Shown piece by piece: positions 16,643 through 18,766 of a stretch of DNA of 64,000 nt. The notes below the pieces were generated by a model, which ran no database searches, was not told the DNA's origin, and saw nothing but the letters and a program-made list of their open reading frames with translations. This stretch comes from Streptomyces sp. Je 1-332 (GTDB lineage Bacteria; Actinomycetota; Actinomycetes; Streptomycetales; Streptomycetaceae), in assembly GCF_040730185.1 (NCBI RefSeq), contig NZ_CP160402.1:2604001-2668000 (forward strand), read 5' to 3'. Every line of letters starts with the position of its first letter. The stretch's first letter is position 1. Made by a program: the position numbers and the translations under genes.

Positions 16643-18766
16643 CTACTTCCCGTGTTTCTTGTGCTGCTGACTCTGCTGACTCTGCTGGCTGTCGTCGTAC
16701 TTCTCGTAGGCGTCGACGATACGGCCGACGAGCTTGTGCCGTACGACGTCGTGGGACGTGAGCCGCGAGAAGTGCACGTCGTCGATGCCCTCCAGGATGT
16801 CCTGGACCTGCCGCAGACCCGACTTGGTGCCGTTCGGCAGGTCGACCTGGGTGACGTCACCCGTGATCACGATCTTCGACTCGAAGCCGAGACGGGTGAG
16901 GAACATCTTCATCTGCTCGACGCTGGTGTTCTGCGCCTCGTCGAGAATGATGAAGGCGTCGTTCAGGGTGTTGTGCGTGAGCAGGTAGTCCTGCGTGACG
17001 TACAACGAATCCTCGGCGGCGACCTGGATGCAGACCGCCTCCTCACGCCCTGCGGGCTCGATGGAGTCGATGAAGCGCATCGGACGTCCGCCGCCTCCGG
17101 CCGCGTGGTACTTGTCGCGCTTGCGGGCGAGGCGGAAGGGCTCGATTCCCTCGGGGAGACGGATGTCGACGACGTGCTGGTCGTACCGATGGGCAGCCAA
17201 CGCGGCGCCCTGCTCGCGGCCCTCGGCCGGACGGCGTCGCGTATAAGCGACACCCCCGAGCGACTGAACGAGCGCGATCACGTCGTCGCGCAGGACGATC
17301 GACGCGGTCGAGTACTGGATACGGCAGGTGCGGTCGTCCTGGGTGACCGGGCCGCCATCGGAGTCAAGCAGGCCCTGGAGCACTGCGAGCCGGGTCTCCG
17401 CCGTGTTGAACAGGTAGTCATCCGGCACGAACTTGGAGTGCGAACGGCCGCCGATGAGGTCCAGTTCGCGCATGACGCCGGTGACCGGATTCTCCAGAGT
17501 GACCACGTCGCCAGGCGACTTCACCCGGTTCAGTACGTAGTCGGGGCCGCTCTTGTGCCGCACCTTGACGCCCGGGAGCGCCGCCTCCAGCGCCTGGGCG
17601 AGTTCGACGTCCTCTGTCGAGAACGACGGCGTGGTGGAGCCGGTGAGGCAGCCGTCCCCAAGGAGCAGGCCCAGCGCGTACGGGTCCATGCGGACCTCAC
17701 GCTCCGGGAACTCGACGGGCGCGGTGAGCATCGGCAACTCGTACCGGCGATAGTGCGCCGCCCGCAGGTTGCCGATCATCTCCTGGGTCTCCAGGACCCG
17801 CCACGGCTTGTCGCGACGCTTGTCGTCGCGCGTCCTGACCGTCCACAGGTGCTCACCGCAGCACAGGGTCCAGGAGCCGTCCTGGGCCGTGACGCGGTAG
17901 ATGTCCTTCTCGCCCTGGGGGTAGACCCCGAGGACCGGAGTCGGCTCGCCGTTCGAGCCCATGACTAGGTCGCCGACCTGAAGGTCACCGATGGCGCGCC
18001 AGCCGTCCGGCGTGAGGACATTCGTGAAGCGCGGGTGAGCGCGGCCCCTCATATACGCCAGCGGCGCCACCTCGATCGTTCCCGCTGCCATCAGGCGCGG
18101 GATCGAGTCTGGGTCCAGCATGTCGTGCAGCGCGTCGTAGAGAGGCCGCAGGTACGGGTCGATCTTCTCGTAGAGCGTGCCCGGCAGGAAGCCGAGGCGC
18201 TCGCCGGCCTCGACAGCGGGGCGGGTCAGGATGATGCGGTTGACCTGCTTGGCCTGGAGGGCCTGCACGGCCTTGGCCATGGCGAGGTAGGTCTTGCCGG
18301 TGCCCGCGGGGCCGATGCCGAAGACGATGGTGTTCTTGTCGATGGCGTCGACGTAACGCTTCTGGTTGAGCGTCTTGGGGCGGATCGTGCGGCCGCGGGA
18401 CGAGAGGATGTTCTGCGTGAGGACCTCGGCCGGGGTCTCCTGGCCGTCGCCCTCTCCTGCCTCGTCCGCCCTGAGCATGGCGATCGAGCGTTCCACTGCG
18501 TCCTCCGTCATCGGCTGACCGGTGCGGAGCACCAGCATCATCTCGTCGAACAGGCGCTGGATGAGGGCGACTTCATGGGCGTCACCGACCGCGCTGATCT
18601 CATTGCCCCGGACATGGATGTCGGCCGCCGGGAAGGCCTTCTCGATCACGCGCAACAGGGCGTCGCCGGAGCCGAGCACCGTGACCATCGGATGGGTCGC
18701 CGGGACGGTGAAGTGTGCTCGGGCCTGACCCTCGGCAGGGGTATGAGCTGTGGGTGTCTGAGTCAT
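16643..18766 (-). CDS. phoH: PhoH-family ATPase interrupted by an intein
   Basis: 707 codons, made of a normal 350-aa PhoH split by a 357-aa intein. N-extein residues 1-242 include Walker A GPAGTGKTYLA and end at AYMRGR. C-extein residues 600-707 begin TLNDAFIILDEAQN (Walker B). Removing residues 243-599 restores the uninterrupted family sequence YMRGR-TLNDAFII. PhoH proteins are cytoplasmic NTPases linked to RNA metabolism and are nearly always beside ybeY, as here. The insertion site lies directly before Walker B, so the unspliced protein should be inactive. The C-terminus has a short Gln/Ser/His/Lys-rich tail. Confidence 0.95.
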   Translation of the reverse strand: MTQTPTAHTPAEGQARAHFTVPATHPMVTVLGSGDALLRVIEKAFPAADIHVRGNEISAVGDAHEVALIQRLFDEMMLVLRTGQPMTEDAVERSIAMLRADEAGEGDGQETPAEVLTQNILSSRGRTIRPKTLNQKRYVDAIDKNTIVFGIGPAGTGKTYLAMAKAVQALQAKQVNRIILTRPAVEAGERLGFLPGTLYEKIDPYLRPLYDALHDMLDPDSIPRLMAAGTIEVAPLAYMRGRAHPRFTNVLTPDGWRAIGDLQVGDLVMGSNGEPTPVLGVYPQGEKDIYRVTAQDGSWTLCCGEHLWTVRTRDDKRRDKPWRVLETQEMIGNLRAAHYRRYELPMLTAPVEFPEREVRMDPYALGLLLGDGCLTGSTTPSFSTEDVELAQALEAALPGVKVRHKSGPDYVLNRVKSPGDVVTLENPVTGVMRELDLIGGRSHSKFVPDDYLFNTAETRLAVLQGLLDSDGGPVTQDDRTCRIQYSTASIVLRDDVIALVQSLGGVAYTRRRPAEGREQGAALAAHRYDQHVVDIRLPEGIEPFRLARKRDKYHAAGGGGRPMRFIDSIEPAGREEAVCIQVAAEDSLYVTQDYLLTHNTLNDAFIILDEAQNTSVEQMKMFLTRLGFESKIVITGDVTQVDLPNGTKSGLRQVQDILEGIDDVHFSRLTSHDVVRHKLVGRIVDAYEKYDDSQQSQQSQQHKKHGK
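16970..18040 (-). mobile_element. intein in PhoH, class 3 type, with LAGLIDADG endonuclease domain
   Basis: Residues 243-599 of the precursor. Block A is TNVLTPDGWRAIGDLQVGDLV. Residue 1 is Ala, so the usual Cys/Ser nucleophile is missing. The block B His is in CCGEHLW and is followed two residues later by Trp309. Block F has Cys579 (AVCIQVAAEDSLYV). The C-terminus LLTHN has Thr597 before the penultimate His and terminal Asn599; the +1 residue is Thr. This Trp-Cys-Thr set plus a non-nucleophilic first residue is the signature of class 3 inteins, which splice from the block F cysteine. LAGLIDADG-like motifs LGLLLGDG (residues 365-372) and LQGLLDSDG (463-471) mark a DOD homing endonuclease with intact acidic residues. 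Confidence 0.92.

Follow-up and report, generated by a model that had tools for sequence, protein, structure and literature searches.

Is the long coding insertion in the phoH gene of Streptomyces sp. Je 1-332 a mobile element that splices itself out of its host protein, a device that serves PhoH, or a dead insertion that leaves the gene disrupted? We addressed this question in a stretch of 64,000 nucleotides (hereafter the window; contig NZ_CP160402.1, positions 2,604,001 to 2,668,000, assembly GCF_040730185.1). Sequence comparison and structure modeling indicate that the insert is very probably a full-length class 3 intein with a LAGLIDADG homing endonuclease, lodged at a conserved site in PhoH, for which the individual splicing and homing steps can be predicted.

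An intein interrupts PhoH

The minus-strand open reading frame (ORF) at 18766-16643 encodes a PhoH precursor of 707 amino acids (aa) and stays open across the insert, which comprises precursor residues 243-599 (window 18040-16970), is 357 aa long, keeps the frame and lies between AYMRGR and TLNDAF. The exteins belong to the PhoH family, their match to PF02562 (Pfam E 7.8e-91) falling in two stretches, and a profile search of the genome found the same profile broken at positions 117/116 around the insert. Together with the junction residues and the empty alleles considered below, this bears out the original prediction, made from the letters of the window, that an intein interrupts PhoH at AYMRGR/TLNDAF. 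The parts of the precursor are as follows.

18041-18766, minus strand: N-extein of PhoH, residues 1-242, with the P-loop GPAGTGKT (ORF reading and Pfam)
16970-18040, minus strand: intein, precursor residues 243-599, 357 aa (ORF, junction residues and empty alleles)
17741-18040, minus strand: N-terminal splicing region, intein residues 1-100, approximate boundary (gp41-1 alignment and structure model)
17111-17740, minus strand: LAGLIDADG endonuclease region, intein residues 101-310, approximate boundary (Pfam and structure model)
16970-17080, minus strand: C-terminal splicing region, intein residues 321-357, approximate boundary (gp41-1 alignment and structure model)
16643-16969, minus strand: C-extein of PhoH, with the Walker B motif IILDEAQN and the stop codon (ORF reading and Pfam)

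Splicing residues and class

The key residues of the intein are Ala1, His64, Trp66, Cys337, Thr355, His356 and Asn357, followed by Thr at +1. The Cys1 or Ser1 nucleophile is missing, its place being taken by Ala1, and the non-contiguous Trp-Cys-Thr (WCT) signature of blocks B, F and G is present as Trp66, Cys337 and Thr355, invariant in all 109 inteins compared at the same PhoH site. The class 3 signature was thus read at the places where it had been expected; of the precursor positions first given for it, Cys579 and Thr597 were right, while the Trp is residue 308 and not 309, still two residues after His306.

17843-17851, minus strand: block B His64-Leu65-Trp66 (precursor 306-308), His and Trp invariant in 109/109
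17030-17032, minus strand: block F Cys337 (precursor Cys579), presumed first nucleophile, invariant in 109/109
16970-16978, minus strand: block G Thr355-His356-Asn357, invariant in 109/109
17858-17860, minus strand: Cys61, where the TxxH motif has its Thr; Cys in 105/109 same-site inteins

The proposal that Cys579 occupies the catalytic position of block F was upheld by two comparisons: in a sequence alignment it pairs with the block F Cys of the gp41-1 WCT intein, and 123 residues of the predicted model superpose at 1.4 A on 6bs8, a class 3 intein of solved structure. This model came from an AlphaFold2 run with 59 sequences, which superseded a poorer 11-sequence run (predicted local distance difference test, pLDDT, 67.5). 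A sequence search of the PDB matched the gp41-1 intein at 2.8e-13, and a protein search with the insert scored 7993 proteins, 5712 of them at E <= 0.001, most named hits being Streptomyces proteins. Matches of this strength lie far beyond chance. We rejected class 1 because Ala1 cannot be a nucleophile, and class 2 because the WCT motif is complete; by every class 3 mark that sequence and model can reveal, this is a class 3 intein. Following the established class 3 mechanism, Cys579, aided by His306 and Thr597, would attack the Arg242/Ala243 junction, the N-extein would then be transferred to Thr+1, and cyclisation of Asn599 would leave PhoH ligated as AYMRGR-TLNDAF.

Position 1 is occupied by Ser in 26 of the 109 same-site inteins despite an intact WCT motif, a mixture of features from class 1 and class 3. 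Ser1 also occurs in class 3 inteins elsewhere.

The homing endonuclease

Two LAGLIDADG-like motifs, LGLLLGDG and LQGLLDSDGG, contribute the acidic residues Asp129 and Asp228, and the region has the predicted LAGLIDADG fold. Searched alone against Pfam, the insert matched LAGLIDADG_3 at 1.5e-7 and Hom_end_hint at 2.2e-5 (25 bits, under its cut-off of 32.1), and the match to PF14528 was above its cut-off in a single stretch. The description of the endonuclease as apparently intact therefore stands.

17654-17656, minus strand: Asp129, first LAGLIDADG motif, kept in 107/109 same-site inteins
17357-17359, minus strand: Asp228, second LAGLIDADG motif, kept in 108/109 same-site inteins

One motif acid is absent in three of the 109 same-site inteins (two at Asp129, one at Asp228), and four are shorter than 350 aa (L052, 296; L023, 337; L179, 347; L182, 345 aa); the shortest, L052, also lacks Asp129. 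Across the 38 Streptomyces alleles, the ratio of nonsynonymous to synonymous change (dN/dS) was 0.18 in the endonuclease region, 0.094 and 0.063 in the splicing regions and 0.097 in the near-site exteins, values that come from a crude Nei-Gojobori calculation over 703 non-independent pairs with median synonymous differences of 0.32-0.51 and are hence rough. Rough as they are, they appear to speak against drift to a pseudogene. Such an endonuclease would cut an intein-less phoH, and the intein would be copied in during repair.

Distribution and mobility

A full-length match to the intein was present in 38 of 246 sampled Streptomyces genomes, the source genome included. From the 208 other genomes we took 92 phoH loci without an intein match, working down a ranked list rather than at random, and read an empty YMRGR/TLNDAF-type junction directly in 91 of them (32/32 and 59/60); the remaining locus (L315) failed the junction motif, and one empty allele (L084) has Ser at +1. 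In a sample of the phylum, 38 of 396 genomes gave some match at 1e-6, and among the phylum loci retrieved the same PhoH site is filled in eleven full-length loci outside Streptomyces (L039-L049) as well as in the shortened L052. The plasmid search gave 20 records, the sole one at 60% or above being an 11.85-Mb Nonomuraea record, by size a chromosome. Across Streptomyces, the distribution of the intein is sporadic.

Intein identity followed far-extein identity weakly (r 0.28 over 100 alleles) and extein identity nearer the site with r 0.51 over 38 alleles; this weak link, together with the patchy presence, is what a mobile element should show. In an extein tree of 70 rows, intein presence needs at least 12 changes of state, compared with a mean of 23.4 after shuffling, and the phoH of the window pairs with an empty allele (L065) that is 95% identical (support 99); on a tree of 191 rows, at least 38 changes are needed. 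We suggest that repeated spread and loss, and not any service to PhoH, would keep the intein present in Streptomyces and other Actinomycetota.

Several observations weigh against this interpretation. Presence is clustered on the 70-row tree, 12 changes being fewer than the shuffled mean, and its well-supported branches force only 2. Moreover, no pair among the 38 Streptomyces alleles has inteins clearly more alike than exteins, and the nearest intein to that of the window in this set is 85% identical in DNA; therefore, no recent transfer was caught. The clustering and these pairwise identities would also suit old vertical inheritance with many losses, in which the endonuclease no longer drives spread, as would the same-site inteins that are shortened (4/109) or lack a motif acid (3/109). 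We nevertheless consider this account unlikely, given the purifying selection on the endonuclease region (dN/dS 0.18), the many changes of state on the extein trees and the placement of Actinomadura, Actinoallomurus and Micromonosporaceae inteins among the Streptomyces ones, albeit with supports of only 80-93. That the intein is dead and phoH left disrupted is the least credible account of all: loss of phoH might be tolerated in a genome with a further PhoH-family gene of the PhoH2 type, but the frame is open, the catalytic residues are all intact and invariant, and dN/dS is low in the splicing regions and exteins of intein-bearing alleles.

Ordinary genes adjoin phoH at window 14826-16629, namely ybeY and, after it, a CNNM/CBS/CorC-type gene.

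16132-16629, minus strand: ybeY, 13 nucleotides downstream of the phoH stop (PF02130 4.4e-36, TIGR00043)

The original prediction held that the insertion could act as a post-translational switch, an adaptive arrangement in which conditional (for example, redox-sensitive) splicing keeps PhoH inactive and so tunes the phoH-ybeY pair. Unspliced PhoH is probably inactive because the insert separates Walker A from Walker B, and the proximity of ybeY is suggestive in view of E. coli, where, in the available part of PMC5101352, ybeZ and ybeY share an operon and the PhoH-like YbeZ interacts with YbeY. Redox control likewise has a parallel, since the available part of PMC6195587 describes inhibition of the class 3 intein DnaBi1 by H2O2 through its catalytic Cys, and 105 of the 109 inteins in our set have Cys61 at the TxxH position. 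However, the disulfide partner of the catalytic Cys in DnaBi1 is, in the same part of that source, Cys48, which is not at the block B position. Most sampled Streptomyces do without a full-length match, and intein and far-extein identity are weakly linked. With a match in only 38 of 246 genomes and an r of 0.28, the switch was not supported, and we regard it as very improbable; repeated spread and loss of a mobile element accounts better for this intein.

The second PhoH-family gene, PhoH2-like, lies elsewhere in the genome (5146625-5147239), and its matched domain has no intein.

Viral relatives

The phoH gene of a 100-kb IMG/VR contig (L187/L328) is interrupted at the matching site (AFMRGR/TLNNAF) by a class 3 intein, which in alignment is 56% identical to the Streptomyces one.

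L328:10001-11716 = L187:2563-4278, IMG/VR contig: viral phoH with intein

Around this gene lie a UvsX-like recombinase, a DNA polymerase exonuclease subunit and, within 18 kb, nine transfer RNA genes, a content that appears phage-like, as in large phages. The contig is an unlikely direct donor because its guanine-cytosine content is 51%, against 71% in the window. The viral search returned 195 stretches, of which 80 were kept; a simple pattern found H-x-W, Cys and THN in 53 of the 80, and the L187 contig alone has a PhoH-like Walker B after the intein. In the tree, the 23 PhoH-site rows form one group apart from the 36 other viral rows (support 100), and in the midpoint-rooted drawing the viral L187 intein is sister to the other 22. 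Among phage records, 491 of 50,697 contain relatives, every one below 60% identity. Caudovirales GX15bay was tried as a further same-site relative and rejected, its "PhoH" having only intein families and no PhoH domain; this protein (MK557849.1, L327:1517-4336) is probably mislabelled.

Comparison with known inteins

Class 3 inteins in PhoH have been published for mycobacteria: in the available part of PMC6195587, the legend of Fig. 6a calls the PhoH inteins of M. fortuitum and M. xenopi (PhoHi) class 3, and for M. smegmatis PMC7360933 mentions a PhoH intein. These share host protein and class with the Streptomyces intein, which differs from them in sequence and in the family of its host, the named mycobacterial alleles being compared here by their description in those excerpts. 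In same-phylum proteins, of which two (L039, L041) belong to one genus, the intein occupies the same PhoH site and is 65-68% identical; one hit of a search with L039, at 81%, is a "PhoH family protein [Mycobacterium sp.]". Databases name the matching proteins PhoH family protein. Whether this allele had been described was left undecided at the outset; the kind is published, and searches on inteins with PhoH, Streptomyces homing endonucleases and Actinobacteria found, among the papers listed, no title or abstract describing the Streptomyces allele, one large survey lying outside their coverage.

The class 3 inteins of mycobacterial DnaB (DnaBi1, 6bs8; MchDnaB1, 6rix) are mini-inteins that have 125-130 resolved residues and no endonuclease, whereas the Streptomyces intein has a full endonuclease and resides in PhoH. 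The yeast VMA intein PI-SceI, a class 1 intein with Cys1, is about 20% identical to it. Phage class 3-like inteins are homologous over most of its length, but sit in host genes other than PhoH (terminases, helicases and others), except for that of viral contig L187.

Codon usage upstream of the junction

It is possible, although on balance doubtful, that the intein marks its host gene through an excess of rare codons in the 18 nucleotides upstream of the junction, the protein being unchanged, and that such sites record or control susceptibility to homing.

18041-18058, minus strand: codons -6 to -1 (AYMRGR), rare codons enriched in intein-bearing alleles (flank comparison)

Counting codons that end in A or T, or are AGR, as rare, the rare fraction at -6 to -1 versus elsewhere in the gene was 0.38/0.07 for Ala, 0.34/0.13 for Tyr, 0.51/0.14 for Arg and 0.33/0.19 for Gly in 100 intein-bearing alleles, and 0.10/0.08, 0.07/0.11, 0.32/0.16 and 0.29/0.19, respectively, in 91 empty ones; empty sister-strain alleles have mostly ordinary GC-rich codons there. 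In 38 tree pairs, formed by greedy pairing on the best tree whether or not the branches were supported, the excess was greater at -6 to -1 than in any other of the 44 six-codon windows (median p 0.0087, uncorrected for the 44), and the subset -6, -5 and -3, chosen after the data had been seen, gave 20.3 up and 2.7 down (median p 0.0003). Neither the C side nor any of four control stretches showed an excess (median p 0.26-0.82; 0.81 for +1 to +8 on the C side). Against this, the 12 pairs on well-supported branches were non-significant in both versions (median p 0.453 and 0.375), the control stretch +13 to +27 leans likewise in these pairs (3.9 vs 0.8), and the 62 added intein rows are a biased sample, drawn from the 80 loci most like the query.

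Co-conversion as the clean cause was rejected. Given far-extein identity, the partial correlation of flank identity with intein identity was weak near the junction, 0.077 (p 0.030) at -6 to -1 and 0.136 (p 0.010) at +1 to +6, yet 0.161 at +19 to +30 and 0.177 at +46 to +60; as it is as high far downstream, the junction is not singled out. Identity profiles of the window against G123 and G189 revealed no clear donor tract. We take the codon pattern, seen at sequence level, as a lead.

Significance

The PhoH intein of Streptomyces sp. Je 1-332 seems a well-preserved and solid representative of a type of mobile element already known, and offers a clean full-length class 3 intein where the solved class 3 chains compared have 125-154 residues. 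Many culturable Streptomyces together supply a natural set of phoH alleles with and without it, which opens splicing, homing and the burden that an intein places on PhoH to direct tests. Should the codon footprint prove real, the natural variation at synonymous sites would indicate which alleles are open to an intein.
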